Positions 2,304-62,558 of a DNA stretch of 64,000 bases are shown here, in pieces. The first letter of the stretch is position 1, and each line of letters opens with the position of its first letter. Made by a program: the position numbers and the translations under genes. Source of the DNA: Macrocystis pyrifera. Its lineage: Eukaryota > Sar > Phaeophyceae > Laminariales > Laminariaceae. The stretch lies in the NCBI GenBank assembly GCA_031763025.1, contig JASSKH010000010.1, forward strand, positions 3,653,901 to 3,717,900, read 5' to 3'. A model generated the notes under the pieces. It did no database searches. It saw only the letters and a program-made list of their open reading frames with translations, and had not been told where the DNA came from.

Positions 2304-2754
2304 CAAAAACAAGCAAGAAGAAAAAAAACGGTACCCTGGCTGTCTAGCTCACGCAGTGAGAGGTGTGTTTTACAGCATCGTCGCCAACCGACGCCAACCC
2401 AACCTATACATATACCAGATATATAATATATAGGGGTGGGGGGGATACTGTAAATTAAAGTAGAACCTTTTCTGCCAGTACCAAGTGCTTGTACTTACCT
2501 CAACCCTTCTAGGACAAACCAGTCGAATTACCAGTAGATTTATTTCCAAAACGGAAGTGCAATACTATTAATAGACGGGTTAGCGACGAGTACTATCGTG
2601 TCCAAAAATAACACCTTCAGACGGGACTCCCAAACGCACAGGGCAGCGGCTAACGATACAAAGCGCACATTTGGCACGCTAGGGCGAGATGTTCTCTTCT
2701 GAAGAGGGCCTAGGGTGACTTCAGTGGGGGCCTCTACCCTGTCCCCGGGTTAAC

Positions 2755-3604: not shown

Positions 3605-4880
3605 GTTTTCAACGACTCGTATTTGACACGTTTTTTCGCCAAATTGGCAAGTTTATGGAAATTTGGACTCGCCAAAAATAACAAGTTTGTTGCCAAACTT
3701 CATGTTGGATATTTTTCGTAGTCCTTCGTTGGCAAGTTTATAGAATTTTTTATTTGCCGTTTGCTAGTTGGGCTTGCTGTTTCAAGCCTCGACAAAAAAA
3801 AACACCCAAAAAAATTGACAAACTGGCAAAAAAAATTACGTAGGGCTAGCTACGTAGTTCTTATACCGTCGAATACGTGGATCGAAAAAACCGGTTTCCG
3901 ATCGGAGACAAAATCGGGCTTTCTTATACTGTTGGAAAATAACCTTTTCGATGCCAACTTTGTCGATCGAGCAATCGGATCCACGCATCTCGTCGAAAAC
4001 AGTCTTTCGACGGGATGCGCGGATCGCATTTTTCGATCGATTTTTGTTTCAAGCCCCCCGCATCTCCACCCCTCCAAACACACTGCAACTAAACACAGAC
4101 GAGTCCCACCACACGGCCGCAGCCCAGACACCTCTCCGATGCTGGGCTGACTGTTTTGCTGCTGCTGCCGCTGCTGCTGCTCTACCGCTGTTGTTGCTGC
4201 TGCTCACAGCGCACCTCCTAGAACCCGTGAGCGGGACACGAAGAAGTTTTCAAACTATTTTCGCCCGCAATACTCCAAAGAGCACAAAACCAACAAATTC
4301 GATCCCACTGGCGATAGGGAAGGCATCCAGACACACCCCGTCGAAATTATAGTGTATCGGAAACCGACCTCTCGATCCTTCGAACCCGACGGCATAGGAT
4401 TTATTATTAATAATAGCTTGACGGCACGTATTTATTAATAGCACTTTTTTGCCAAATTGGCAAGTTTATGGACATTTGGACTTTAAGCACCAAAAAAGCA
4501 AGTTTTCTTGCCAAACCTCATCTTGGATGCCTGGTACTTCCGTAGTCCTTCCTTCGTAAGTTTACGTTTTTTTTTTTTTGCTATTCGCTTTCTGGACTTG
4601 CTCTTTCGAGACTTGTAAAAAAAAAACAAGAACTTGCCAATATTTTACGTAACGACACGTATTTAGCAAGGTTTTTTGCCAGGTTGGCAAGTTTAGGGGA
4701 ATTTGAAATAGCCGAAATATCGTAGCAGGTTTTTCGCCATACGCGTATTTCTGTAGTTCTTTGTTGGCACTTTTTTTCAAGTTTATAAAACAAATATTTG
4801 CCATTTTTGCTATTTCGAAACGTGAAAAAAACCCCAAAAACTTGCCCAATTGCAAGTCTTTCACGTGTCGTAAAAACGGC
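3605..4880. repeat. Three related AT-rich repeats of about 220 bp
   Basis: GCCAAATTGGCAAGTTTATG followed by a TTTGCCAAAC..TTGGATG block and CGTAGTCCTTCGTTGGCAAG occurs near 3640, 4450 and, more diverged, 4680. Between the first two lies unique DNA. Confidence 0.5.
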
Positions 4881-9300: not shown

Positions 9301-12300
9301 TCGAACAGCAGCTGCAGCAGTGCGGTGTTCTTTTTTTGGAAGACTAGCGCTGTACATGTGTATGTGCAGCTGTCAGTGTCGGTCGGCTTACTTTCGTCAC
9401 CAACCGGCTCGTAATAACTACTATTAATATTAGTATTGAAATTAATACGTACCACTGCTGTGTCTCGAAAAATAATTGCCGTTTGTATTTAATATTCATA
9501 TCAAAACGTTCCTTGCAGCTTTTAATCGCGGCCGTATGAAGTCCAGCCAACTCACAGGCGTATCGACCCTTTTATAGTACCGCACTGCTGTCCAGAAACC
9601 TAAATCCGCCTCTAATTCCAAATGTTTCGTATCCACAACGGAACTGCAGTGCTAAAGGGATAAATTGAGCCTCTTGGGACTCGAGAGCGGGGGAAAAAAA
9701 GTGACTTTATTTATTTACAGCAGCGGCCACGTGCTTGCTTGCTAGAGCGGGGGATGATATGTCTGAGTTAGCACCGCAAGGAGCCGCGCGGCACGGGCAC
9801 AAATCATTCTCCCGGCCGGGTGCTGCTGGGCGCTCCCATGCTGCTCGCAGACGGTTTGATACGACCAAAGTTGTCGTGGTTCTAAACAAACACCTGGTAC
9901 GAACCAATATGTTCTTTAAAATAAAACTGTTTTGATATAGTATTGATGTACAAAAGGCCATAATATTTTTGGACAGAGCGGTAGTCGTTTTTTTCGCAGT
10001 CCCTGTGGGGGTTGTGAAGTGTTTGTGTGTGTGTGGTATTTCCGCCCCATCGACATGCGATGCGGCGCATCCAGTGTCCGTGCTGATGCAAGCTCGCGTG
10101 GTCACAACCTTCGAAACAGAAGAGATGAAGCAAGCGCTGTCTGTGGTCGCCAGCTGTTGTACGAAGCAGAGATGCTTTTATGCAGGAAGGAGATTAGACG
10201 ATGCCATGCCATGCGGATGCGGTGTTCATGCGAAGGGACACACGCGCACAAGCACATGCTTACAACCAACGGTCTCGATACGAAAAGCACAGCACGCGCA
10301 AGCGAGCATGCAAAGCAACAACATAAAAATCGCGAAAGATTGAGAGAAAAACTTTTAATACGTAAAGAAAAATAAGACAGCAAGAAATGTCAGGAACGGA
10401 AAGGAATTAAAAACAGCAAACGAAAGAAAGAAAGAAAGAAAGGGGAAAAAAAAAACGCTCCGCGCACGAAACGAAACGAATTTTCAGGGAGGAAAGAAAG
10501 AAGGTGCCTCCGAAAGCAAAATCGAGGAAAACAAAAACGAGCGAACAACAAATAATCAGAAAGCGAAGCAGACGACAAACAGGAATGGATGCAGCAGGCA
10601 GATTGGGGTCCGAATGCACCGACAGAGGCAGTAGAGACACATCGCTGCGTCATCTTGTCACCTCCTCACCCATGTTTTAAGTGATACCGGCGTGCATACT
10701 CATCGTCTCCTGCTTGACCTTTTTAGTATTTGCTGTAACAACAGTAGTAGTTCCATTTTGGGGACAGACTACTTAGAATTTGGCTGGTTTTTTCCCCACC
10801 ACGGGACTGCTGTACTGGAAGGGTCCAAAACACTCTCAGGGAAAACGGGAAAAGCGAAAGGAAACGCTGGCAAAAGATGAAAGGGTCACAAGAAAAGAAA
10901 AAAAGAAGACAAACGGGAAAACACACGAAGCGGAGGAGATTGGTTCTCCACGACCGAAACAAAACGTCGACATAGGAAGCCTGGGGAGCGGAGAGAAGAA
11001 GAAGAAGACACGAACCGCCTCCTGTGTGCGTACAATACTTTGTCGACAGCCGTGTTGTTTAGCAGTATGGCTGTCGCGCTCCCCCGGAGGAGATGATGCA
11101 GAAAATACAAAACTAAACAAAAAAACAAAAGACCACTAGAAACCCCAACAGGCTCGAAACCGATCAAGACAAAGAAACAAAAATAACTTGAAACGAAGCT
11201 GCCCCAGCAGTTTTCACAACAGACAGGTTTCCACCCACTACTATAACTTGTACTGTACGTAGTCAGCCTGGTGCCTTGCTACCCCCCTGTCTACCGTCTC
11301 TTCCATGCTTTACGCAAGCGCGGTTTCCCTCTTTTTGTTGCCCCTAACCATCCTTGGCCGGTGCGTGGGGTGTTGCCTGCTCTTTCCCGCCTCCTCCTCG
11401 GGCCACCTGACCATGAACTGTTGGGCGTCTTCGAGGACCGCCCCCCCCCCCCCCCCCCCCCCGGTTCCGCTTGCTTGCCTACCTTATTTTGTGGTCCACA
11501 GTACGGTCTCAACACCAAAACACCAACGGGGATTGTTTCCGTGGAATCCTCCCTCCGTGGCTCGAAACACCTTTGAGGTCGTCAACTTCTGCCGCGAGCG
11601 TTACTTTTATTTCTTTTATGTTTGTATGTATGTATATATATGTGCTCAAGATTTGTTCAAGGATGGCGTCACACACAAAATAAGGTGCTGTTACGCGGCA
11701 ACATAGTATTACGGGGGTCCATAGTTAATAGGACCTATGGCGTACATAAAAACCTATATATTTAGGTATTTTTACTAACAATATTTGGTCCTGTTAACTA
11801 TGGACCCCCGTAATAGTAATCAGGACTAAATACGCCTACTGTTGCGGGGGTCCATAGTTAATAGGACCAAATTTTGTTTGTAAAATGGGTAAATGTAGAG
11901 GTTTTTTATGTATACCATAGGTCCTATTAACTATGGATCCCCGTAATAGTAGTAAAAATGCTGGGGTATTACAGTTTTTGTGTGCACGACGGGTCCTGAG
12001 TAATGTAGCAGGTCGGGACCGAATAGCCTATTACGGGGGGGGTCCATAGTTAACAGGACCTATGGTATACATAAACACCTATATATTTACCTATTTTTAC
12101 TAACAAAATTTGGTCCCGTTAACTACGGACCCCCGTAATAGTAAAAATACTACGTGGAGTATATAGGTTTTGGTGTACATGATTGATCCTGATTGCTATG
12201 TTGATCCTGATTGCTATGGTGATCGGGACCAAATACGCCCAGTTAAAGCACTGGAGTGTGTAGGTTTTTGTGCGCGTGATGGGTCCTGATTACTATGGTT

Positions 12301-12537: not shown

Positions 12538-12574
<37 letters not shown>

Positions 12575-15327
12575 CCCCCCCCCGCCACCGGAAAGAAGAG
12601 CCGTTTACGGGTGGTCTCGCCTCGATGATTTCTCATCCATCGTGTCTTCTCGAGCGCCTTGGCGTACGAGGAGGTGGTGGTGAGGGTCGGCGGCGGTCGG
12701 CATGTTGTCGTCGGTCCTGGAAGCCAATGAATGACTCACTCGCAGGAAGACCTTATGGTGCGGCGTTCAAAGCTCGCCGGGGTCTTTCGCTCTGAGGGTC
12801 CATGACTCACACCCGTAACTTTGCACATTAACCAACTCAATAAAGTCAGGCGAGCGCAGCTAGAGTATCCCCCCCCCCCCCTCCTACCCCCCCCCCCCCC
12901 CCCGGCCGGCCGAGGGGGCCCGGGCGGGAGATGCCCCCCGAGGGCCTCCCGGGGGCACCTTCGGAGGATTCCTGTGAAGGAGGCGCCTCTGGAGGATGCC
13001 CCCCCCCCCCCCGCGCGCGCGCGCGCTGGAGGCATCGCCAGAGCCATTGACTTAGAATACGCTACGAATATGTCTCCGTTTCACGCAGAAGCATGACCAA
13101 AAGTCATGTCAGCCTTAGCCTTCCTACAAACAACCACAGAAAAACAAAAACGGTCGGACTGTAGTTGGCGCCACTGTCGCTGTAACAAGTAACCACTGCT
13201 GCTGTAGTTGGCGACTTTTGTGTGGTCAGCCAGGGCAGGGCTACTATGAGTATGGCATACCAGGTATGTTCTTGGTTAAGTTATTAAGTTGGGTGGCAGC
13301 TTTGACTTTTAGTCGACCGAAGTTAGGCGAGCAAATCAAGCCAACCACCCCCGCCCGCCCCCCACCCCCCCCCCCCACCCCCACCCCCGGCCGAGGAAGC
13401 CTCGTTTGGAGGCGTTCCAGGAGGACTGGAGGCGCCGTCGGCGACGAAAAACAACATTTTTGGGCATCAATGTATACACGAAAAAGTGGGATAGAACCAA
13501 ACAAGCCTTCCCTACAAACAAGGAAACCCCAATGGTCGAATACTTTGTTGGCACCGCTGCTACTACTGCTGTTGTAGTGGTGCGTAGCAGTAAAATATAA
13601 AATAAATAGCTATGTACCCAACTACTGCTGCTGTGTGTGTTCTTCACATTGAACCGTTCTTTCTGCCTGTCGACGTCCAGCACAACCAGTGTCGGTGCCG
13701 ATTCTTCAATCCTGGAGAGATACAAGCTCTGTGGCCTCGAAACTGCGACACAGAGATACTACAGCAGCGTACAACATTGTGCAGTAAGCAGAGTAGACGA
13801 GTAGACAGCAGTGCAATGCCATGCCATCGTGTACTGGATACGACCGGTACGACGCACACATTTTACGAGAGAGAGAAAAATCGAAAGAAGCAAAAAAACA
13901 AATCCCATCTGTATTAATCTTTTTTTTTATGAATTTTGAAATACGTCAGCTGTGAGTTGGACTGATTAAATAGTTGATAACTCAACTTTGCAAGCTGCGT
14001 AATACGCCCCGTTCGTTGTAACTAATCGGCGAGTTTTTTCACGCTGTAGGCAGTCAACCCACCGCCCCACGGAAGAAGAGCCTCCTGAGGTTGGTCGTCG
14101 AGGTCATATCACCGAGGACCGCAGTAATCAGAACCCATCAAGTACACTAAAACCTATATATTACAGTATTTTTACTAAGCATATGTGGTCCTGATTACGG
14201 GGGACCATAGTTATCAGGACCCATCGTACACACAAAAACCTATATATTCTATTATTTGTACTAGGCATATTTTGGTTCTGATTACTATCAATATGTTTCC
14301 CCCCGATGCTTGTATTATATTAGTAGCAAGCTGTCAAGGGTCATGGAGCCAGCCAGGCAAGGGCGACGAAGGGTCATGAAGGCCGAGAGGGGTCGAGGAA
14401 ATATAAGTTTGAAGTTATGCTGCTGTGTGTACAGGAATGAGAGGCTAGGCGAAACGCCAGCTGTAATTGTAGTGGCGGTCTCCCGCAATGAACTGTAATT
14501 ACGGTTTCGTTTTCCCCCGCCAGCTATTAATGGCGGTCTCGGGGCCGTAAAATGTAATTACGGTTTCGTTTTCCCCGCCATCTTTGATTCATACCACCAC
14601 TGCTGCTGCTGCTGCTGCTGCTTGCTGTTGCTGCTGCTGCTGCTTGCTGTTGCTGCTGCTGCCTCTTATTATTTACCAGTACTTAGAGCAGCAGTAGTAT
14701 TAATAGTAGTCGTAGTTCTAGGGTTAGTTCAATGGCGAGTCTCCAGCAGCGGCAGTTGTCACGAAAGCCTCGAGATATCTACGTTGCGTGATGACGGGAG
14801 GTGATATGTAAGTACCCCCCCGAGCGTTGGTGAAGACCGAGTACCCTCGACCGTAGGTACTCCTACATACGTACGTGCACGAACCCCGGTACCAATACAC
14901 TGCTGTTACTACACCAGTCTAGTGTATAGAGCAGTAATGCTTGCTGTAGTGGCACATGTACTGTTTTTGATGAGTACATACCGCAGGCCGCGACTTACTC
15001 GAGTACTCACGGAAGCAGAGCACGAGAGACCACTAATACTGAGAGAGTGTGTGTGTGGTACTACAAGCCACGTACAGCACACGCACGCAGAGCCAGCAGC
15101 TTGCAATACATATCAATCAGCAGTCGGTAAGCTTGATAAAATTATGACACTCGTACCACAGAAATCATTCTGAACGTCGTGTGGCCGTTATATAGGATAT
15201 ATATTTTCTCACGTAATACCTGGTTTGCATGTGGTACTATCAGCCAGTGAAACAGCAGCAGCGGCAGCAACAGCAGCACAAGCAGAAGCAATAGCAAGCA
15301 CGTGAAAAACACGAGAAACGACTTTCA

Positions 15328-15360
<33 letters not shown>

Positions 15361-18300
15361 GAAGCAGTAGCAAGCACGTGAAACACGAGAAACGACTTTC
15401 AACAGCAGCAGCCTATTATTAATAGTAGCACGGTTCTCCTTCTGTGTACCCGGCATACAGCAGCAGCCAGTAGTATTAATATTAGTATTAATAGTAGGGA
15501 TGCGTATTTCCCGGAAGCGGTAATTCGCCCGCGGTAATCGGTAAATACCGGTAATTGATCCGGTAATTTATAGGGCTGGTGGACCGGAAACATCTATCAT
15601 AATTCAAGCCTGCTTATCTATCTTTCTAGCTGCCTGCAATGCACGCTGATGGAGACCTGCTGGAGAGCTGATAGAGAGCTGATAGAGAGCTGATAGAGAG
15701 CTGATAGAGAGCTGATAGAGAGCTGATGACGCCGGCGACGTGTGTGTTTTGCCCTGCTCCTGTTTGGGTGTCTGTGTTGGTAGTCTCGCTTGCCCTGCGA
15801 CGCTGGCTGGTGGAAGCGGTTGGATAGGAGACCCTATACAGTAGTAGCAGTGTATGGGTACCGGGGTTCGTGCAAATACATCCGTGTATAGGTGTACCCC
15901 CGGCCGAGGGTACGTGGTCTTCACGAACCCTCGGGGGTACTTATATCACTCCCCGATGGCAACACGTTATGCTGTGCACGGCAATGGTGGTAGTTTGTGA
16001 TGGTGCTCTTGTTGCTGCTGCGTGTTTGTCGTATGATGGTACCCTCTTCCCCTCTTTCATCTTTTTGTTCGGATGATGAGGGGCTGTTACTATTATTATT
16101 AATACAGGTACGTACCAGCAGCCAGGTAAACCTGTTTCTTTTTCTTCGTTTGGCGTGCGTGCTGGCGTGTGTTTATATTATTGGTGCTCCGTTTCACCGC
16201 AGCCGATGTGCGTACCTCAGCAAGGACCTCTACGGCGATACCGCCCTAACGCGTGAAACTCGTGAATTTAGCAAAATGCTGCTTGCACTGCTGTGCAATC
16301 TGCATGCGGGAGGAATCAAAACTACAGCAGTACGGCCAGCAGCAGGGCATTCATTCTTGCGTTTTTACCGTAACAGACGAGTATACACGCGAAATTCATT
16401 TTTGAAAGAGTTGGGCGTACAAGATTGTTGTGAAAATCGCGAAGCATGTGCGAGAACGAGAACTGAAAAAAGCCGGTACTGGTCCTGGCGCTTGCTCAGA
16501 CGGCGATAGTCAGTGCCTCTCGTCCGAAGGTGTCATTTTATTTTATATTTTCCAACTTGTTTTGCACCACATAGTAGACATTTTTTTTTGCACAAACATG
16601 TAAATGCGCCCACCTTTTCGCGCGCGATGTTGTATGCCGGAGTACAATTTGTTGGTGTCGAACATTATTTTCTGTCTCTGAATTTGTCGACGTGTACGAG
16701 TACCTCTCGTAGGAACAAGAGGCAGTACGGGCGAAGCCCGGGGGGTACGTCGGATGTCCCTGGGGAGAACTATCGAAACATGGACCTCGCTAACGGTTTC
16801 ATGTGTGAAATAAGACTGAACGAACTCAAAATCAAAACTCAACTCTCCAGCACTCCTGTCGCCATGGTATTGATCATATGGTATAATCGGGTATGTGTAC
16901 CCAACTTATCTCCAGGCATACTGTCAAACACCCCCACGTTTTGCTGCTTGGTGTGTGTTTTTTTGGTAGTGCGTTCTTACCCCCCCGTCCCAAAGTTCGT
17001 GCTCGGTCCGTGTGCGTGTGGCTTTCGAAATGTGGGCGCGTTTTTTGGTGGTGCGCCCCCCAAGTGGTCTCAAATTTCGTACTCGGCCGCCCCGAGGTCC
17101 TCCAAACTAGCACGGCGAACGATGGTGACGGGTGGCAGGCAGGGCAAAACCAGCCTTTCAGAGCCTCACGTCTATCTCTTTGTGAAGGCCAGAAATTTAC
17201 TCTTCGCCTATGCAAGTAGTCTCCTGTGTCGTCTTCGTCGTCGTCGTCGTCGTCGTCGTCCACCCACCCCCCCCCCCCCGCCATGTCTTTTCGTTTGCAG
17301 ACCACACTGCTGTTGCTGCACTATTACGGGGGTCCATAGTTAATAGGACCTATATGGTACAGATAAAAACCTATATACTTACATATTTTTACTAGCAATA
17401 TTTGGTCCTATTTACTATGGCCCCCCGTAATAGCAGTTATGGCTGCAACCACTCTCACGGGGAGGCATGCATACTATTCATTGCATAAAAACGGAATTTA
17501 GACGAGACGTATTTGTTACGCAGCTTGCAAAAATTGAGTATCAACTACTGTCCTTTTCGTAATCAGTCGAACTCACAGACTCTGACGTATTTCGTAATTT
17601 TATAAAACAGTCAGAACCGAAGATGGGCCCGAAAGCCATGTATATACATACGAATCCCCCCTACTGCTGTTTTTCACACATTTTTTTGTTCTGATCACTA
17701 CAGCAGTACGTCCCCCCGCATGATATCGAAATATTACGGGGGCCATAGTAAATAGGACCTACGGCACACACACACACAAAAATATATATATTTACCTATT
17801 TTTTCTGACAATATTTGGTCCTATTTACTATTACGGGGGTCCATAGTTAACGGGACCATATTTTGTTGGTAAAAATAGGCAAATATATAGGTTTTTATGT
17901 ACACCATACGTCCTGTTAACTATGGACCCCCGGTAATAGTGTTCCCCGTAGTAATAGCTTTGTGCCCGAGGGCAGATTATCATTGTTTTTATCATACCAG
18001 GTATATACGTACGACAAGTACTTCGTATATTCATTCGTAGGTACGTCTGTCTGCTGCAGTTATGTACGTAAGGGCTTGCATTCTCGGAGAGCTTTTTTTT
18101 GTTCTTCCACAATGTCCAGAATTTCCAGGGGGCGGGGGGGGGGGGGGAGTTCCCGCATTTTTTTTTTCTTTCATATTTTTCTTCTTTTTTTTCCCCCCAG
18201 ATATCATGTGAAATTTAACTTTCCTGATATTTTGCCCTCTGTCAAACGTAACAAATCGTGACAGAACGCCTCCGTATCTGGATGCAAAATTCAAAATTTA

Positions 18301-21300
18301 GAAGTAAAAAAAACTCGTTGACATGAACGTCGCTAGAAGTCGAGACTTTTCCTCAGTCTGTGATCGATGTCTCTGCCATCAGGACAGAACAAGAGTAGCT
18401 CATGTGTGCGTGCGTGCTCGTCGCAGATCGGTCTTCCTCTTATCTGTCGGTAGTAGCCCTGACCCTAAACCAAGCTTACACGTCGTAGCGCTCGTGTGAA
18501 GCCATGTACCCTCCCTAAATGGTACCGCCTCCATCCACCCACTAATTTGTTGTCGTTCGATTGGAGGGTATTAATTTTCGTACCCTTCGGTTGAACACCA
18601 CTACAGCAGAGCTACTGTTGCAGTATATTAAGGATGATACTTGTATTCGGAGGTGAATCCCTGCACGCAGATGTCTTTGAATCGTCGGTCGGAGATAGGC
18701 TCACCCATCTTCTCCAGTTCGGCGCGGGCGAGGATCTTCTCCATGAAGAAGTCATCAGGGTCTTGCCCTAGCTGCATTGGCGAGTCCACCAATTTGTCCA
18801 TTGTTGACCGGATGAGCTCGTCTGTGACCTTGTTGTATTTTCCAACGAGTTCGAGCAGGGCTTGTTGACCATTCCCACTCGTACCGCTCATAACCTATTA
18901 GGTATGGCGATTGGCGTGTATACCAGCTCGTAGCTGGTGTGTACGCCTAGACTCGATTGCCGATGGCCGGTCAATACACAGTCAAAATAAATGTTCGAGG
19001 CAAACGTATAGCCACTGTTAGGTGACTTGTACGAGAAGCTTCAATAGAAGAGAAGAAGAAGATGGTGTGGTGACCCCAAGCCACAGTGTTGGTTCATTTG
19101 CTCAGCTGGAAGCTGATGATGGTGAGCAAAAGTAGAGTGAGCTCAAAGGGGAGCGATGCGCGTGTGCGCTCACTGCTCGAAACAAAGGACGACCCCTACA
19201 AATTCGTTCAAAAACAAAAATAGGGAAATACCCTTGCATTCAGTTCAATATAAAACAACACGGAGACCCGCAATTCTACTGCTAAAAACAATAAAACTTG
19301 GGGTACGTACTCATGACCCTCTTGTAGCCTATATTGTTACTTCAACCACAACTAAAACTATGCTGCTGGTCCCGACGGGATACTGAAGATACCCTGTCCA
19401 TTATTTACCAGTGCGCACGCACCAGGTACTGCTGTACGTGTGTGCTGCTGGCTGTAGATTCTGTACGTACGTAATACAGTAGATCCACGATGCGCTGCTT
19501 GTTATTGAGACCTATTATTATGCAATATGCACGAGTGCACAGCAGTAGATATTATTGTAAGACTGCTGCTGCTGTATACTGCTACAGTAATACTACTCAC
19601 AGACTGGAAAACTGTCCGCGGTACTTAGAAATGCGTAAGTGTATACCAGATGACGCAAGTGTTATCGAGTAACGACTATGATGGCTACTGACAAGTATCA
19701 TACTTAATACAGTATAATACCCCCAACACCGCTACCACCAACAACACCATAAAAAATACCAATAGCACTACCAAAACCACCACCAACACCGCTCTACCAA
19801 CACTGACACCATTACCTCCACCACCACCACCACCACCCACACTGACACCATCACCACCACCACCCGCATCGACAACGCCAACAAACACTGTCCGCTACCA
19901 GGCACTGATGGTATTTTGATTCCTACCAAGCAGTTCATATCCCACGGTATCCCATCAAAAGCGGGCAGTGTTTGCTTATCTACGATTAATACCAGGTATT
20001 AAATGTCACTATTAATATTGCTATCTTCTCGCGGGTTGTACAGGGGAGGGCACGCCTATTTGCAGGATGTTTAATAGAGTCGCAGCCCACCTCTACTACT
20101 GTAGTACATGCTTTTTTTTCTACTGTAGCACCGTGGTCCATAATAAGCTCCAATCAAGCACGGGCTGCTTCGTTTGCCTATCTGCAAGACGCGTATATAT
20201 ATCGTACCAGGTATTATTTGTTGGGCACGCCGACTAGTAACGAACCCCTTTGGTGCTCGCCGCCCTCCGTCCGCCCTTCCTCTTGGCATGTGCTGCACAA
20301 AAAACCTACCCGCTGCCATACGAACACCAGGGCGGTCTGCGGCCTTGCCTGGACAAGATCGAGGCGCTAGAATGGGGCTCGGACTCCGACCTTGTGCTCT
20401 GCGCGATGTACAAGCGCTCTCTGGTCGAGGTGTGTATGCTGCGAGCCCTCCTGTTTGTTCTCGGTCTTGGTGTTGTTCCTGGGCTTGTTCATGTTCTTGC
20501 TGCTGACGTTGCGATGCGATGGCAGTTGCGTACTCCCCCTCTCCCCTTGTGGCAAGGCAACAGAGTAGAACTCACATAGTAGGAGAATGTGAAATGTACA
20601 AGGAGGAACGAGATGTGTTGAAAGAGGAGATAGGGGAAATAGACAAATGTGGCATGGGGGAGTTTGATACACTATTATAGATAGCAGCGAGAAAACGATC
20701 GCTATCCTAGGAGATAGATGGTGGCCACAGGCGGCAAAACAGGAAGGGGGTAAGATTAGCAAAACAAGTCTTGTGTAATATATGGAAACAAGGTAATGAG
20801 CGCCCAAATGTTGGAGGTGTTTCTACTAGGAGTAGGAACGGTGCTCCGCCTCGAAAGAGATGCGTGGTCAATGTTCAAGTGACGCTGGCAAGCAACAAAT
20901 GAGTACCCCCCCCCCCGTGTCCAGTGTGTACATGGTAAGGCACCCACGAGGCAGTTACATAGTAAACCCATTGCTGTCTCTGGAAGTGACCACACCAGAA
21001 ACTAAAACTATTTCATTACTTTTATCATCCATGTGCAAGAAAATCCGCCTCTAAAGCGGTTCTCAGTAAGATGCAGCTCACCCTTCATGCGACTCGCCCA
21101 ACACTTCACGGCGCCTCGCGCTTGGTGCAAGCAATGTCAGCCTGGTCGGTGAAAACCCGACGTGCTCCGTCCCGGCATTGTATATAAGGATGCGAGTGTC
21201 TACGGTCGTACGACTACGGCCATGCATAACAATGAGTACCCCCCCCCCCCCCCCCCCCCCCACCCCCGCATCCCCTATGCCTCCTCCAATACGCATCGTT

Positions 21301-22253: not shown

Positions 22254-25200
22254 CTACCGCCCCGAGCAGCAAGCAGCCCGGACGGACTGCTACGTAGACT
22301 ATTTAGCTGGTTGGGTCATGTAAATGACCCTTTTTTTTTTTTTTTCGTTTTTTTTTTTTGTGCGTGTGTTTCCCTCGTGAATCCCCAAAAGGTCGATGTT
22401 AATGAACCCTTCAAGGACTGCAGTTCCGTTTGGAGTTTTGGGCGTTTTTTCCCCCCCCCAAGACGGGACTGCAGTCCTGATAGCTCTCTCTCTCTACACG
22501 TGTTCCATTCGGAGCAATGAAATCGCCCACGATTCGTTAGTTTTCTATGGCTATTGTACGAGTGTTATCTGCTGGTATGATATGCTGGCAGATATGGTAT
22601 GATGGCGCACGAACGTTTTCGACGCGGGTGTGGTGTGATGCTTTTTTTTTTTTTCTTCGGTCGATGACTCAGCAGTAGTAGCCCTTGCTTACCACGTCAC
22701 TAAACTCTTAATCTCGTACGTACGTACCTCATCAAATTCCCCGAATTCCACGCTCTATCGTAGACACGTATTGCGGGGGTCCATAGTTAATAGGACCTAT
22801 GGTATATATATATAAAAAAAACTACCAGGTATATATTTACCTATTTTTACTAACAATATTTGGTCCTATTTACTGTGGTCCCCCGTAGTAGTAAAATTCG
22901 GCGGCGCGGTGAGGACAAGGCGGCTCCGATCAATGTGGGCTCGACAACCAATCTTTTTTTTTCTGTCGGAGCCTTGACCACGCACAACAAGGCATTGCGT
23001 TGACCCTTTTAGTCTCCTTTTTTTTTTTCTTCCGTCCCGTTTCTTACTGTAGTTTCGCCCTTTTCTCTGTCTTTTAGTACTGCAGTCCCGATTTGGGGAC
23101 AATTCACTCGAATTAGAAGTAGGTTGTCTCCAAGACGGAACTGCAGTACTTATTGATAGAAGGTTAATATGTTCATATTAATAGTTATAACTCACATCCG
23201 GGGTCACAAAAGCAGGCTCTTTCTTCTACCTGCCTCCCCCCCCGCTACGGCTCTTGCCTTGCATTTCTCCTCAATCTGTCTCGTGTCGTCTCCCGCGTTT
23301 TTCGACTACTGCCTGTATGTAGTGTGTGTGTTCTTCACATTAGTTGTACGTGCAGTAGCTTTTTCATTTTTTCACTTTATTTTTCGCTGTCCTACGTATA
23401 GAGCACATACTCTGTTGTACTGTAGTTCGAAGTATATATATAGATAAGTAGTTGCTGGTACCAAGCAAGGTACCTGGTGTATGTGATGTCGTACGATGCC
23501 TTCGGTCTAACTTGGTGTGGCACTTATTACGGGGGTCCATAGTAAATAGGACCAAATATTGTTTGTAAAAAAGGTAAATATATAGGTTTTTATGTATACC
23601 ATAGGTCCTATTAACTATGGCCCCCCGTAATAGCCGCCGGCCAGTATGCTTTTTGGGACAGATTCGTTGAACACCTGTATGTATTCGGTACAAGTACGAG
23701 TATCTATCCTGACGCGGTGTATTTGTGTTTTTCACTCGAAACCGGTTACGTATTTCGTTGTTTCTACCCGTCGACATCCCGCACACCCTACCCTGTCCGT
23801 ACCGATCCTTCGTCCTGGAGATATACAAGCTCTGTGGTCACAAAACCAGGAAGCGGAAAATACTACTGCTATGCAGCTCGGCTGTACTTTGTAGTGCAGC
23901 AACAGGAGAATAGACAACTCTGTCATGTCCTCGTACTGGATACGAAGGGCATGTTGTACGTGTCTCGGTAGCAGCGGGTCTGTATGTTGTTGTATCAGAC
24001 TACAGCAGTTAGCAGTATGAGATTCGTACGAAACCTGCTACCTGTGTACCTGGTATATACAGCGGTTCTTTACTGTTTATAGTATCCCTGACACGTTCGC
24101 GACTGTTTTTTTTATAAATGGTTGGTTCGCTGCGTGACGTCAGGTAATGCTGTATCAGATAGTTGAGTCTGTTGTGTGTTGTCTTCACGTCCTGCCTTAC
24201 CTGTTACTACCCAGCTTCATCGATACACCCAGCGTCCGTCGTGATTCCTTTTCCTAGAGATACTAATTATTATGTGGTCGCAGACTGTGAGACAGGCAGA
24301 GCAAGACCGAAAACAAAAATAATCGTAAATTTATTGGTCAAGCAAGTGAAATGCCAACATACCTCCAGCAGCAGTAGTGTGAGAACTGATGAGAACACGA
24401 CAACACACAAGCGAGACAAAAAAATAGGAACAAAATACGAAAAAAACAGAAACAACGCGTGTGTTTTTTTTTTTACCCGTCGACATCTAGCACAATGTGA
24501 ACACACGCGCAATCTCCGTGCCGATTGAGATCCAGACTGCAGAGTTATATTATTAATAGTACGGAGTAAACAGGACCAAATATTGTTAGGAAAAATAGGT
24601 AAATATACAGGTTTTTGTATGACGCCCACATGCCGGCGTCCCCGGTGGCTTGGTAGGTGGTCCGCGAGCCTATCAAGATCAATTTCGTGAGTTCGAGTCT
24701 CACCGAGCGCATGCTCATAAGGACTTTTTCTTGCATAAAATTGACTAGCGGAAAGCGCGAGAGCGTGAGTTAGCTGTACATTCGATGAAAGTCGACGAGC
24801 AGTGGGAATGCTGAACCCTATGCGCGATAAAAAATAAAGGCACGTACGGGGGGGGAGAAGGGACGACACCTGTGACCACGGCTTGTCCAGAAGATCGTCG
24901 AGGGTAAAACCTCCTACGAGTGGCTGGAAACTAAAAGTGATGATGAAAAAAAAAAATGTACCGTGGTAATAGTAATATTAATATTAATAGTATGGTAAGA
25001 TAACTATGACTCAGAAACAATAAAATAAAACATCGTTAATAAGCTGTTAATGCAACAACCATGCCATCGTCGTACTGACGACCACCACAACATGCCACAC
25101 ACGCCAGAAACCCCAGACAGATACTTCGAAAGAGACAAAAAAAAAACCCGAAAGAATCGGAACAAGACAAAGGGGAGGAAATAAATATAATATAGCACTG

Positions 25201-27682
25201 CTGCTGTAGTCTGTGCTCTATATCAAAAGAAAAAAAAAAAAAAAAAAAAAAAAAAATAGCAGAAAAGAAAATAAAAAATCGGAAGAGAAATAAATAGCGA
25301 TGGACAGACGACAACAATCAATTCCCATGGCGCCAATAACGAACGTCAAACGGTAATTCGACATGTGACCGACTTGGGCACTTCCGCTTCGTCTACTGCT
25401 ATTAATAGTGCTGTACAGCAGCGGTAGTCTCGTCCTCGACGTACTTGAAGCTATGAATAAGATATCACCATACTTTTCAAGGTCAAGTTCGACGCGAGAG
25501 AGTCGACGAGGGAAGAAAATCCTTCTCGCGACGAAAACGCAAGGCACGTACCGCAGTGGGGAGGGGCGAGGGAAAAAACTACGTTTACGGGGGGCCATAG
25601 TAAATAGGACCAAATATTGTTCGCAAAAATAGGGAAATATATAGGTTTTTGTCTGAACCGTAGGTCCTATTTACTATGGTCCCTCGTCGTAATAGCCACT
25701 CCGTCCCAAAATGTAATGACTCTTTTCAGTAACTACTGATGCACAAAACCCGCTCATATTTCGGGGCAGTGGTATATTACTGCTGCATGTGACCCCGGAT
25801 ATGAGCTACGGCTGCTGTTATTACAGTAGTAGTATTAATAGTAGGGGTGGGAGAAAAAAAGAGGGCAAAGACAATGAGTAGGATGGAGAGAAAAAAAGCA
25901 ACGGCAACAGCAAACAGCAGTATGTAGTATACAGGCAGTATGTATAGTACACAGGCAATATTTTTTGTATACTGCCAGTATATGTAGTATACTGCCAGTA
26001 TATGTAGTATACTGCCAGTATATGTAGTATACTGCCAGTATATGTAGTATACTGCCACTATATGAAGTATACTGCCAGTATATGTAGTATACTGCCAGTA
26101 TATGAAGTATACTGCCAGTATATGTAGTATACTGGCAGTATTGCCAGTAACTTTCCTCGCCAGTACTACAGCAGCAGTAAGTACTACAGCGGCAGTACTA
26201 CTTCATGCTGTACGTACCACAGAAGCAGTACTGCTGTTGTACCTCAAAGTGCACTCCGGTGTTTCGGAGTACGCCAGCCCCAAATTTCTACTGCCACGCG
26301 TGTGTTGCTCACACTCAGCACTAACCCGTTATTTCTACCCGTCGACATCCAGCACAACCAACGTAGTGCCCGTGCTGACTCGCCATGCCACTTCCATACG
26401 ACGTACTCACTATTAATACGACTCGTAGAGAGATAAAAGCTCTGTGGTCTGTGGTCTCAAAATTACGAGACACAGCTATTACACTATTACGGGGGTCCAT
26501 CGTTAATAGGACCTATGGTATGCATAAAAACCTATATATTTACCTCTTTTTACTAGCAAAATTTGGTCCCGTTAACTATGGACCCCCGTAATAGAGTGCT
26601 TTGCCGCCAGCCCCGAATCACTGGCTATATACATTGCCCAATACCCGGCAAAGCCATGCCCAGAATGCTTGAATACGTCCCAGTACCTCGCGGTTGGTAT
26701 AATATGTCATACCTAAACTACTGCTGCTGTAACTATTAATATTACGGGGGTCCATAGTTAACAGGACCTATGGTATACATAAAAACCTATATATTTACCT
26801 ATTTCTACTAACAAAATTTGGTCCCATTAACTATGGACCCCCGTAATAGGACTGTTGTAGACTACCAGGTACCGCTTTACATAACACGCGATATTTTTCA
26901 CAGCCTCTGGCGTACTATTTTCAGACCCGATTTTCTCCGAAGACGCGCAGCAGGGTGGGTGCCTCACACAACACCATGGAAATAAATAAATATTGGCGGC
27001 TTTGGGGAAAAACGTGTACGAGTATGTATGTTCATCGAGAGATATTTTCCGTAAGCACGTCGCTCGGCTCGGTGTCTGCGTTCGTTCTCCCCCGTTGTGG
27101 AGAAATCACTTTTTTGTTAGATTCATCGGAGGGGGTGTGTTATTTTTATCACCCGGTATGTTATTTTTATCAACCGTGTGTTGTGTTTTCACCCGGTGTG
27201 TTATTTTATCACCCGTGTGCTATGTCATCACCAGTCAGTGTGTTATCTCGTCACATGTGTGTCATTTCATCACCCGCGTGTTTTCTTACCATCCATGTTA
27301 TCTTATCACACCCGTGTGCTATCTTACCACCCGTGTGTTATCTTACCACCCGTGTGTTATCTTACCACCCGTGTGTTTTTTGACACCCGTGTGTTATCTC
27401 ATCACCCGTGTGTTATCTCATCACCCGTGTGTCATTTCATCACCCGTGTGTTATATTATCACCCGTGTGCTATCTTACCACCCTTGTGTTATCTTAGCAC
27501 CAGTGTGTTTTTTTGTCACCCGGTGTGTTGCCTTATCACCCGTGTGTTACTACGCGGTTCGGTGACGACTTTTTACAGTTGTGCCGGTACGTACATTGTA
27601 TTTTACCACGTAAAATGTAGGGCCAAAGTACTCGTATGAGCATCAGGTGTACTTACTATTTACTACTATTACGTACTCGTAG

Positions 27683-27716
<34 letters not shown>

Positions 27717-29090
27717 CATCACTTTTACTTTCCAGCCCACTCGTAGGAGGTTCTACCCTCGACGATCTTCTGGACAAGCCGTGGTCACAGGTGTCGTCCC
27801 TTCTCCCCCCCGGTACGTGCCTTTAGTTTTTATCGCGCATAGGGTTCAGCATTCCCACTGCTCGTCGATTTTCATCGAATGTACAGCTAACTCACGCTCT
27901 CGCGCTTTCCGCTAATCAATTTTATGCAAGAAAAAGCCCCGATGAGCATGCACTCGGTGAGACTCGAACTCACGAAATTGATCTTGATAGGCTCGCGGAC
28001 CACCTACCAAGCCACCGGGGACGCCGGCTCTGTACTATTGACACAAGTCAGTGCTATTAATGATACGAAGCCAGTGTCTTCAATAGTCTAGCTTATACCA
28101 AGTTTTCCCGTAAAATACGTATGTATATATATATGTCTGGTCTGCATAATATGACTGCCAGGTATGCATAGAGATTCGTATTTTTCCTGAGTTTTAATGT
28201 TATTTTGTTTTCGTTTTTTTCTACAGAAATAAATCGTCCACATGGGCCTCGGGGTAAAATCTTTATACCCTGCTGGTACTGCTACTACTGTACTGAGTGT
28301 TGCCGCCTTCAGAAAAGTGAGGTCTTGTGGAAAAATAAATACAAACCACCTTCGGACGGACTAAACTTTTAATGTTTAAGCAGTCTGTTAGTAGACAGCT
28401 GGCGTATCTCCACAGCAAGAAGCAAACCATACCAAAGCAAAGCAAAGCCATGGAGCAATGTTCCCGAAATACGGTGGGAGTTGCCGTCCCGTGGAAGGCG
28501 AGGCCAACGCGGGTGAAAATGCTGCCCCTCCCCCCCCCGTTGCCACGGCTGGCGGTCGAGTTAGATCATTTTTGTGCGGGGAGAACCTTTACTCCGCCCC
28601 AGGGGGATGATCGTATCACGTAGTGTGTATATGGTGAGGCACCCACGAGGCAGTTCCATAGTAAACCCGTTTTGCTGTCTCTGGAAGTGGCCACACCCGA
28701 CTTTAAATCAATGCATTGATGCTGTCATCCATATGCAAGAAAATCTGCCTCTAAAGCGGTTCTTAGTAGGATGCAGCTCACCCTTCATGCGACTCGTCCA
28801 ACACCTCACGGCGCTTCGCGCTTGGTGCAAGCAATGTCTGCCTGGTCGGTGCAAATCCGACATGCTCCGTCCCGGCAGTGAAGGGATGCGAGGGTCTATG
28901 GTCATACGACTACGGCCATGCATGATAATGAGTACACACCCCCCCCCCCCCCCGATCCTCATTCTTCTTTTCAAGGCAAACCGCATGGTCATCTACTACC
29001 GAGGAGACATGCGAGGTCTTTCCTCGCCACTCCATCCCCTCTTTGTATTTTTCATCGAACCCTCCTTCTAATTTTGTTACTATATACGGG

Positions 29091-29133
<43 letters not shown>

Positions 29134-31370
29134 ATACGACTACGACCATGCATGATAATGAGCACACCCCCCCCCCCCCCCCCCCCCCCTCCCCCCCCCC
29201 CCCTCAAAAATCGACGTGCTCCGTCCCGGCATTGCAGGGACGCGGTACACTCCCCCCCCCCCCCCCGCCTACTTATCAGACTAATTGCATCTGTCGACGT
29301 CTATTTAACAGTGCATACCTTGTACTCTACGCTCGAGATTAACCGCCGTCGCACCATCCCTTCTTGAAATTCGAAACCCCTCCTCTGAACAATGTTTTAC
29401 ACTGTATTTTGCGACGCCCCCCCCCCCCCCCCCCCGGCCCCATCCCCCCCTCCCCTCCCCTCGTTCCGTCCGCTATGTATTACGCATCTGATATGTGCAT
29501 CGCATCAGTCGATGCATTATCGCCCACCACTCTGTCGGCAAATATACGAACTGTATTGATCTATTGTTTATACCTAAAATGCCCTTACACAGCTGAGCCG
29601 GGTGTTGTCTCTTTTTATCTTGCATCAAGGTGTTTTCGGTGTCGAAGCCTGCCTGGCAATGTCGGATACGGGAGGGCATGGCCGGAATGGTGAGGGCGAT
29701 GTGGGCTCCGGACGCCCGACACGTCTTGACTTTTTCCGACTACAGCCTGCACATGACCGTGTGGTCGCTCTCCACTCGACAGGTGCGGGGTGCAGGCGTA
29801 CGACGTACGGGGGTACGGGGTTACTTTTTTTTTTTTTTTTTTTTTTTTTCGCCGTTTTTTTTTTTTTTGTTTTTGCGGAGAAGAAAGAAAAGGCGCTGTG
29901 CTAGAAAAACTGGGGGGGGGGCAAGGGCGGGAGGGGGGGGGGCGGAGGTGTACTCGATAGGAGAAATGTACTTGATCTCATGCATGGCCGTAGTCGTATG
30001 ACCGTAGACCCTCGTATCCCTACAATGCCGGGGCGGAGCACGTCGGGTTTTCACCGACCAGGCAGGCATTGCTTGCACGAAGCACGAAGCGCCGTGAGCA
30101 GTTCGGCGAGTCGCACGAAGGGTGAGCTGCATCTAAGAGCTACTGAGAAACGCTTGTTGTGAGGCGGTCTTGCACACGAATGACAGCTTCGATGAGCCAA
30201 TTTGATTTCCGGTGTGGCCACTTCCAAAGACAGCAATGGAGGCTCTATGTAACTGTCTCTTGGGTGCCTTACCATGTACACACTATTAATACGTGATGCG
30301 ATCATTCCCCTTGTGCGGAGTAAAGGTGCTCCACCCCACACAACTGATCTACCGCACGGGTGATAAGATAACAGCACCATGTCACACAGGGTGCTATTAC
30401 GGGGGTCCATAGTTAACGGGACCAAATTTTGTTAGTAAAAATAAGTAAATATATAGGTTTTTGTCTGTACCACAGGTCCTATTAACTATGGACCCCCGTA
30501 ATAAGATAATACACCCCCTCCAACGATCTTTCCAAGCTGGTTTTGTCTCGACGCCGGGTAGAATGCGCACGCCGAGCGACGCGTCTACCTTATCTATCTA
30601 GATGTGTGTATTTAGCAAGGTCTCGGACGAGATCTCCTTCCCAATGCCGGCCATCTTTTCGTTTTGGTGTGCGCTCGCTCGCCCCCCCTGGTCTTCGGGA
30701 CAAATAAACCAACCGGCTTCGAAAATTCATCCCACCGGTTGTGTCATCTTGTCCCCCGTGCTGTGCACTCGTGTTTGTTATACGGTACTACACCGCTGCT
30801 GTGCGGGTTCTACTGTATATACGCACGTACAACATTTTTTTTTTTTGTCTTCCTCTTTTTTTTTTTGTGTTCTGTAAGTATTAACATTGTTAAGAAACCT
30901 CGAGAAGGCGATTCTGGGTTTTGTAGAGAGAGTGTGCCACTGCTGGAGGAGAAGGAAGGGCCGCCGTGCCTATGAGCAGTGCCGGTGCTGGTCAGTGGTG
31001 TGTGCGGGGTTCCTTTTGCCATCTGAGATCTTGAGGCGGCGGGGGGGGGGGGGGGGGGGGGAACTGTTTTTTTTTTTTTCCCTCGTGTCTCTTTTCTTGG
31101 GATCTTTACGTACGTGCGAGGGTAGAGTTCCGTCGTCCGGTGAGAGCCGGTGAGCATAAAAACGGAAACACAATCGGGTCTGTCCGTGGTTGACAAAAGT
31201 CGTTCCCCAAAAGTTCTCCCGCAAAAGGGTTTGTTCCGGCGATGGTTTATCTCGAAGTTCTGCCGCGACGGTTTCCCGCACATATCCTCTCAAAAAGCAC
31301 ACACGGAGCTTTTTTGTTTGTTTGTTTGTTTTTCTCTGACCGCTCTTCACGCAACTTATACCTGGTATGC

Positions 31371-37400: not shown

Positions 37401-37569
37401 GACATATTTTCATGAATGCATAACTCGGCGTTTGTACTCTCCATCCACCTTGGTGCTTGGTGCAAGCACGGCTGCAGATTTTTTTTTTTCTCTTCTTTTA
37501 CCTTTTACTTTTTTTAAATACACTATTAATACAACACCACTACCGACACTACAGCCCACTAAAAAACTA

Positions 37570-40039: not shown

Positions 40040-40170
<131 letters not shown>

Positions 40171-53230: not shown

Positions 53231-53541
53231 GGGGTGCTGTAAGTTGAGTGTACGTAGCAAGCCTAAATGCAAGCAAACACAAGAAAACGTTTTTTTCAAA
53301 AATTCGTATATACTGCTGTATACGTATGACACGAGTCAAGTAATACATCGTACGTCCCACCGCGTTAGCCTTTGGATTTCATAGTAACGTTGGAGGGGGC
53401 GTGATGCTATGGGGGATGGGGGATGACACTATTAATATCCGTCTGACCGTAAATATAGGATGTATTTTGATGGCGACAACAACTTCAAGTGAGTGTACCT
53501 TTTATTATGCGATCATATTGTTTTTGTTTTTCTTATTATTA

Positions 53542-54883: not shown

Positions 54884-55199
54884 CCGGCGTCCCCGGTGGC
54901 TTGGTAGGTGGTCCGCGAGCCTATCAAGATCAATTTCGTGAGTTCGAGTCTCACCGAGTGCATGCTCGTAGGGACTTTTTCTTGCAAAAAATTGATTATA
55001 GCGGAAAGCGCGAGAGCGTGAGTTAGCTGTACATTCGATGAAAATCGACGAGCAGCGGGAATGCTGAACCCTATGCGCGATAAAAACTAAAGGCACGTAC
55101 CGGGGGGGAGAAGGGACGACACCTGTGACCACGGCTTGTCCAGAAGATCGTCGAGGGTAAAACCTCCTACGAGTGGGCTGGAAAGTAAAAGTGATGATG

Positions 55200-61904: not shown

Positions 61905-62219
61905 TCCCGGTTCGTTTTGGGGACAATCAACTCATATTCTCAAGTACAGCAGTAGTTCGTCCTCAAAGCGGGACTGACTGCGGTTTGCCCGGAAAGGCTT
62001 GAATTGTACGAACCCTATATTTCCATCCATGAATAGAGTTTCCCATCTAGTATTAATAGTGTACTGGTACCAATTCCAGAGGTACCTGGCAGTCCACAAC
62101 AGGAGCGGTACAAAAATATCACAATTGCCAAAATCAGGTAATTGTCACGCAAGACAACACAACACACCCGTCAGATGGGATGCTTTTATATTTGATTATA
62201 TGGCGATTTCCTCCTCTGA

Positions 62220-62558
62220 CCGGCGTCCCCGGTGGCTTGGTAGGTGGTCCGCGAGCCTATCAAGATCAATTTCGTGAGTTCGAGTCTCACCGAGTGCATG
62301 CTCATAGAGACTTTTTCTTGCATAAAATTGATTAGCGGCAAGCGCGAGAGCGTGAGTTAGCTGTACATTCGATGAAAATCGACGAGCAGTGGGAATGCTG
62401 AACCCTATGCGCGATAAAAACTAAAGGCACGTACCGGGGGGGAGAAGGGACGACACCTGTGACCACGGCTTGTCCAGAAGATCGTCGAGGGTAAAACCTC
62501 CTACGAGTGGGCTGGAAAGTAAAAGTGATGCATAAAAAAAAAAAAAAAAAAAAAAAAG
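62220..62558 (+). mobile_element. SINE1 copy
   Basis: Complete and close to the copy at 54884, with an A tail of about 24 nt. Confidence 0.8.

Follow-up and report, generated by a model that had tools for sequence, protein, structure and literature searches.

The eight-base palindrome TATTAATA of the brown alga Macrocystis pyrifera is very probably, judging from sequence comparison, the footprint that remains when the short transposable element MITE-1 is excised. This origin had been proposed in a first-pass annotation of the window, i.e. the whole stretch of 64,000 nucleotides analysed here (positions 3653901-3717900 of its contig). The proposal is upheld by three states found at one and the same TA, by MITE-1 insertions whose counterparts carry a single TA, by six-base gains relative to paralogues, and by a flank preference common to the element and the word. 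The genome searched is the 537,376,219-base assembly in 223 contigs, described as that of a haploid female gametophyte (PMC10498591), and finer comparisons were made in a 264-kb sample composed of the window and twenty adjoining stretches of 10 kb (L005-L024).

MITE-1 would be a non-autonomous cut-and-paste element whose insertion duplicates a TA. Upon exit, a transposase supplied from elsewhere would cut the 3' strand exactly at the end of the element and the 5' strand two nucleotides inside it; the gap would retain TT on one side and AA on the other, each next to a TA, and its closure by end joining would give TA-TT-AA-TA, that is, TATTAATA. The expected products would be mainly TATTAATA, with some TATTATA and TATTTAATA. 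Such an excision mechanism is of a known kind. For MITE-1, we infer the staggered cut, the end joining, a transposase of the Tc1/mariner/pogo type, and, as the main scar maker, MITE-1 itself and not a longer element sharing its ends.

Three states of a single TA, and the abundance of the word

MITE-1 is itself a target, and a TA within its sequence TTTTTACTAACAATATTTGG served as the test position. Genome-wide, TTTTTACTAACAATATTTGG is uninterrupted, with a plain TA (the empty state), 10,041 times, filled by a MITE-1 (ends TTACGG/CCGTAA) 181 times, and split by a short insert of 1-30 bases between two TAs 280 times, with exactly TTAA in 115 cases; the comparison is between paralogues within a single assembly, not between alleles or strains, and the 115 do not amount to as many proven events, since a single scarred MITE-1 may have given rise to some of them by copying. 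The filled, scar and empty states that had been advised for comparison at one locus are thus all present at one repeat position, and reversed-pattern controls gave 0 in all four state searches. Among the first 100 of the 280 inserts listed, TTAA accounts for 36 and near forms for 19 (TTTAA 6, TTA 5, TAA 3, TTAAA 3, TTATAA 1, TTTAAA 1), the latter being the products expected if two-base overhangs were trimmed or filled in with slippage. Eight longer forms in the same 100 contain or nearly contain the full scar, six starting with TTAATA and two ending with TATTAA; the double scar TTAATATTAA, of the form present at 24976..24989, occurs once and starts with TTAATA. The other inserts listed comprise CTG (5), CAG (3), A (4), C (3), T (2) and four long stretches of duplicated MITE-1 sequence; the remainder are single cases.

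The word is abundant at every scale. The window holds 22 copies (Table 1), against 0.88 expected from dinucleotide shuffles and a maximum of 3 in any of 100 shuffles; the earlier expectation of about one was sound, and the earlier count of about eighteen was too low. All positions given then as examples were recovered, save that 24550 is actually 24551, and copies at 4405, 4433, 16097, 20010, 23176 and 24982 are additional. The whole genome contains 94,130 copies of TATTAATA versus 7,522 of the reversed word, which confirms the predicted enrichment at about twelvefold over control, with an excess of ~86,600. No other eight-base palindrome in the 264-kb sample is as strongly enriched as TATTAATA, of which 58 copies stand against 1.54 predicted by a second-order Markov model. 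An equal enrichment of other AT-rich palindromes, named in advance as an argument against the proposal, was not observed: others are raised, but much less (TAATATTA, 18 seen and 1.54 expected; TATATATA, 65 and 9.29; ATATATAT, 72 and 9.52). TAT makes up 14 of the 36 triplets flanking TAATATTA in the sample, as expected from overlap with TATTAATA. CTA-type microsatellite words, e.g. TACTACTA, are more strongly enriched there than TATTAATA.

Table 1. Copies of TATTAATA and related MITE-1 features in the window
Feature	Position	Strand	Basis or remark
TATTAATA	2566..2573	.	word count
TATTAATA	4405..4412	.	word count
TATTAATA	4433..4440	.	word count
TATTAATA	9422..9429	.	word count
TATTAATA	14698..14705	.	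word count
TATTAATA	15417..15424	.	word count
Two TATTAATA (15474, 15486) in one stretch	15474..15493	.	word count
TATTAATA	16097..16104	.	word count
MITE-1 copy nested in another MITE-1 copy	17831..17936	.	counterparts: one TA
TATTAATA	20010..20017	.	word count
TATTAATA	23176..23183	.	word count
TATTAATA ending a damaged MITE-1 copy	24551..24558	.	word count and alignment
TATTAATATTAATA, two overlapping putative scars	24976..24989	.	word count
TATTAATA	25400..25407	.	word count
TATTAATA	25833..25840	.	word count
TATTAATA	26411..26418	.	word count
TATTAATA; its final TA is the target duplication of MITE-1 copy 26742-26846	26734..26741	.	
MITE-1 copy	26742..26846	.	adjoins apparently older TATTAATA
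Plain paralogue CACTACGTGAT, empty state	28615..28625	-	alignment
TATTAATA in repeat R4 copy, putative scar	30284..30291	.	six bases more than plain-TA paralogues
MITE-1 copy 30397-30501 with both TA duplications	30395..30503	.	counterparts of the host repeat: one TA
TATTAATA	37524..37531	.	word count
TATTAATA	53430..53437	.	word count
TATTAATA	62051..62058	.	word count

Repeats of other kinds are also present in the window. They include a run of 129 G (40041-40169) among 17 G or C runs of at least 20, and tandem arrays at 25901-26180 (20-base spacing) and 27219-27541 (19-base spacing). A 291-base interspersed repeat lies at 24633-24923, 54886-55176 and 62220-62510, its copies being 70-97% identical to the first, with inverted copies as well, e.g. 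at 27737-28028.

MITE-1 has the features of a MITE, being short, non-coding, bounded by terminal inverted repeats and present in high copy number. It reads TA-TTACGGGGG...CCCCCGTAA-TA, with ~105 bp between the TAs and inverted ends, so that the termini TT and AA first ascribed to it hold; the TA flanks ascribed to it stand on both sides in 16 of the 19 intact-ended copies of the sample. BLAST with five copies as query delineated 63 whole and partial intervals in 264 kb, and nearest-neighbour identity among 28 full-length copies ranges from 73% to 96%. When strictly intact ends, a middle of 78-98 bases and TA on both sides are required, the genome contains 15,168 copies, and 187 short variants were matched by a pattern with a short gap. 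The sample contains 17 strict copies versus the 63 BLAST intervals, a proportion which, when scaled, suggests ~56,000 recognisable copies genome-wide as a rough estimate. No MITE-1 ends were found in the viral contigs.

The element and the word also resemble each other in their surroundings. In the triplet preceding the TA, MITE-1 ends (73 flanks) and TATTAATA (116 flanks) prefer T, A and C, with frequencies of 53% and 53% for T, 45% and 68% for A, and 58% and 50% for C, respectively. The flank log-odds over eight positions correlate at 0.65, a value above the maximum of 0.596 obtained when TA sites were drawn at random 2,000 times. The two preferences are similar, not identical. Since a scar should inherit the insertion preference of its element, this common preference fits a scar of MITE-1.

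It is unlikely, even so, that the scars are genuine and that many of them stem from other TA-inserting elements beginning with TT. The excess of ~86,600 words does surpass the rough figure of ~56,000 MITE-1 copies, and several other scar-like words (see below) imply that several families were active. However, no second abundant TA-flanked inverted-repeat family beginning with TT appeared in the 264 kb in a search with short seeds at 40-900 bp, the flank preference fits MITE-1, and it is MITE-1 that occupies 181 times the very TA bearing the 115 scars. MITE-1 is the likeliest main source.

Target duplication and gained bases

The ends of the element, TATTA-CGGGGG...CCCCCG-TAATA, can be read in two ways, with either the outer TA duplicated (element TTACGG...) or the inner one (element CGGGGG...). 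The second reading would make TATTAATA a preferred, pre-existing target of an element CGGGGG...CCCCCG; it fits the ends equally well in a scan of the 264 kb (26 and 25 pairs), and MITE-1 copies do adjoin TATTAATA, e.g. at 26734-26846. Empty sites were searched in the sample with the flanks of 34 element candidates joined by script. For two MITE-1 copies that lie within older ones (joined coordinate 77233, and 217831, which is window 17831) and for the MITE-1 in another repeat (joined 230397, window 30397), the counterparts among the matches listed carry a single TA and no TTAA. Matches for joined 212031 agree with a single TA; the alignments obtained with 211709 and 211842 are of too low a quality to be informative. 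It follows that insertion duplicates the outer TA and that the target sequence is not TATTAATA, which refutes the inner-TA reading for the insertions examined. As the tested TA is moreover a plain TA in its 10,041 empty cases, and as TATTAATA itself represents a six-base gain at four of seven aligned sites, a target hotspot is a very improbable account of the word. Taken as a footprint of MITE-1, the TATTAATA at 26734-26741 was apparently older than the adjoining MITE-1 copy and reused as its target. A TTAA target of the piggyBac/Kolobok kind was also considered and is out, since six bases are gained at a TA and the counterparts carry TA.

The gains were assessed by comparison with paralogues. 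Under the flank filter, an alignment with a paralogue spans the site for seven of the 58 TATTAATA in the sample, and four of these (joined 7645, 12562, 77701 and 230284) show an exact six-base gain. At 12562, 18 alignments have a plain TA and two are of other kinds; at 230284 (window 30284), the alignments differ by six (3), eight (3), one (2) and ten (1) bases. This last site lies in the R4 copy on which the proposal was first based: in context it reads CACACTATTAATACGTGAT as described, and the plain copy reported at 28620 is CACTACGTGAT, exactly six bases shorter. A fifth site, 127240, has gained ten bases, and no gain is seen at 100004, within a MITE-1 copy, and at 118500, in a tandem repeat. 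Sites that align but fail the filter are 71088, 73461, 77710, 172091, 190029, 224551 and 226734; 77710 and 172091 display substitutions or a one-base gap, not a six-base gain, and 190029, 224551 and 226734 are located at MITE-1 ends.

The distribution of inserts at the test position bears on another explanation, in which replication slippage deletes MITE-1, a near-palindrome, apart from a few bases at its ends. Its long inverted repeats could form hairpins and a range of near forms is indeed present, but slippage should scatter its breakpoints, whereas two bases per end are by far the commonest outcome (36 of the 100 inserts listed, 115 of the 280 overall); there is thus very little chance that slippage made the word. 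Most improbable of all is a compositional or regulatory motif with no tie to transposition, since, even with AT-rich palindromes somewhat enriched in general and two of the seven aligned sites lacking a gain, the other five are gains, and the shuffles and the Markov model, which yield at most one twentieth of the observed number, lead to the rejection of a compositional origin.

Other scar-like words and the transposase

TTAA does not dominate at every TA. The TA at window 30284, where the proposal began, bears 203 insertions genome-wide, and among the 100 listed are CCAGG (24), CCTGG (9), CCAG (7), CTGG (5), CAG (4), CTG (3), TTAA (3), C (3) and a tail, including stacked inserts, e.g. CCAGGTACCAGG. 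CCAGG/CCTGG, with 33 of the 100 together the leading insert at this TA and at times stacked in pairs, is probably the scar of another family. A TA in a different repeat, ATACGACTA...TACGGCCATGCATG, has 145 insertions; exact TTAA is absent from the 100 listed, one of which holds TTAATATAA, and the leading forms are C (21), CC (10), CGAC (9), CG (9), CTGCTG (6) and CTG (4). These shares of TTAA, 3 and 0 of 100 listed inserts, count against the footprint reading. The word TACC[AT]GGTA, i.e. TACCAGGTA/TACCTGGTA, occurs 75 times in the 264 kb, ~29 times expectation. Paralogues are available for eight of these sites, and the gain seen most often is seven bases at three of them, eleven at two, and nine, five and none at one each. 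Given TACCAGGTA/TACCTGGTA and the other inserts at TA sites that are not TTAA, several scar-like words coexist.

The balance tips slightly towards a record of exits by several families, in which each TA-inserting family would have its own scar word (TTAA for MITE-1; for others CCAGG/CCTGG, CTG/CAG and perhaps CTGCTG), scars would survive in the tens of thousands, and stacked scars would reflect successive visits. The overlapping pair TATTAATATTAATA at 24976..24989 has the form that a second visit to one TA would leave. Scar-leaving exits may be roughly as frequent in this record as surviving insertions; if so, end joining, not repair from a template, would usually have closed the gaps.

Profile searches of the genome returned 0 matches for DDE_3, 39 for DDE_1 and 145 for DDE_Tnp_4. 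A Tc1/mariner transposase with MITE-1 ends, which the first-pass annotation had recommended looking for, was thus missing from DDE_3 altogether, and no transposase bounded by TTACGGGGG ends appeared in the surroundings of the 9 of 184 other matches viewed (4 of 39 DDE_1, 5 of 145 DDE_Tnp_4). One DDE_1 (pogo-like) locus, L028:2108-3836, has TA-flanked inverted ends CTGG...CCAG ~1.73 kb apart, in which we infer a candidate source of the CTG/CAG inserts. Among the 145 DDE_Tnp_4 matches are several groups whose members have almost the same score and carry open frames, which suggests recently active elements of the PIF/Harbinger type.

Comparison with known transposons

MITE-1 shares two traits with the Tc1/mariner/pogo group, namely the TA target duplication (16 of 19 copies; single-TA counterparts) and, when repeat copies are compared, a footprint composed of the TA duplication and 2-4 terminal bases. 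The footprint of Tc1 in Caenorhabditis elegans is TACATGTA, in which two terminal bases from either end stand between the duplicated TAs. The plan is the same for both elements, the end bases being CA/TG in Tc1 and TT/AA in MITE-1; TACATGTA is without enrichment in the 264 kb, with 4 copies against 5.81 expected. The terminal repeat of Stowaway elements is of the CTCCCTCC type and differs from the TTACGGGGG ends of MITE-1.

The cut proposed here has been measured in ISY100, a bacterial Tc1/mariner element, at the 3' end and two nucleotides inside on the 5' strand, according to the portions of the report consulted (PMC2170065); ISY100 is autonomous, whereas no relative of its transposase is shown in the kelp (DDE_3, 0 matches). 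Stowaway MITEs and Osmar5 of rice are described as short, non-coding (Stowaway) and TA-duplicating, leaving 1-4 bp end fragments next to the TAs; the consulted parts of these sources document them for individual genes or with yeast assays, and not in the form of a word counted genome-wide (PMC1925063, PMC4561436). Footprints of 0-3 bp at TA are reported for ZB and Sleeping Beauty (PMC7913693), a size that matches the CTG/CAG inserts of the kelp, whereas the scar of MITE-1 has four bases, TTAA. BogoMITE of the protist Blepharisma, with 8,000 copies and tied to a pogo-type element (PMC9942856), is abundant like MITE-1, but its elements are, as its description has it, removed from the somatic genome, and MITE-1 is without a known autonomous partner. 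Tourist and PIF-Harbinger elements duplicate 3 bp of target and excise precisely (PMC4561436), and MITE-1 duplicates the 2 bp TA and has a footprint of six bases. Elements of the piggyBac and Kolobok types duplicate TTAA (PMC9587614), and the counterparts of MITE-1 insertions carry TA.

Scar counts offer a way to estimate from sequence alone how frequently an element exits, beyond the number that remains; stacked scars could give the order in which different families visited one site, and scar forms could reveal how a brown alga repairs gaps. No genome-wide count of a transposon footprint word, nor MITE-1 itself, was found in the open-licence titles and abstracts searched. In the portions of the literature consulted, footprints of the Tc1/mariner type come from single genes or assays; here one word is counted across a whole genome, and this scale, the count of three states at one TA and the coexisting scar words are worth following.
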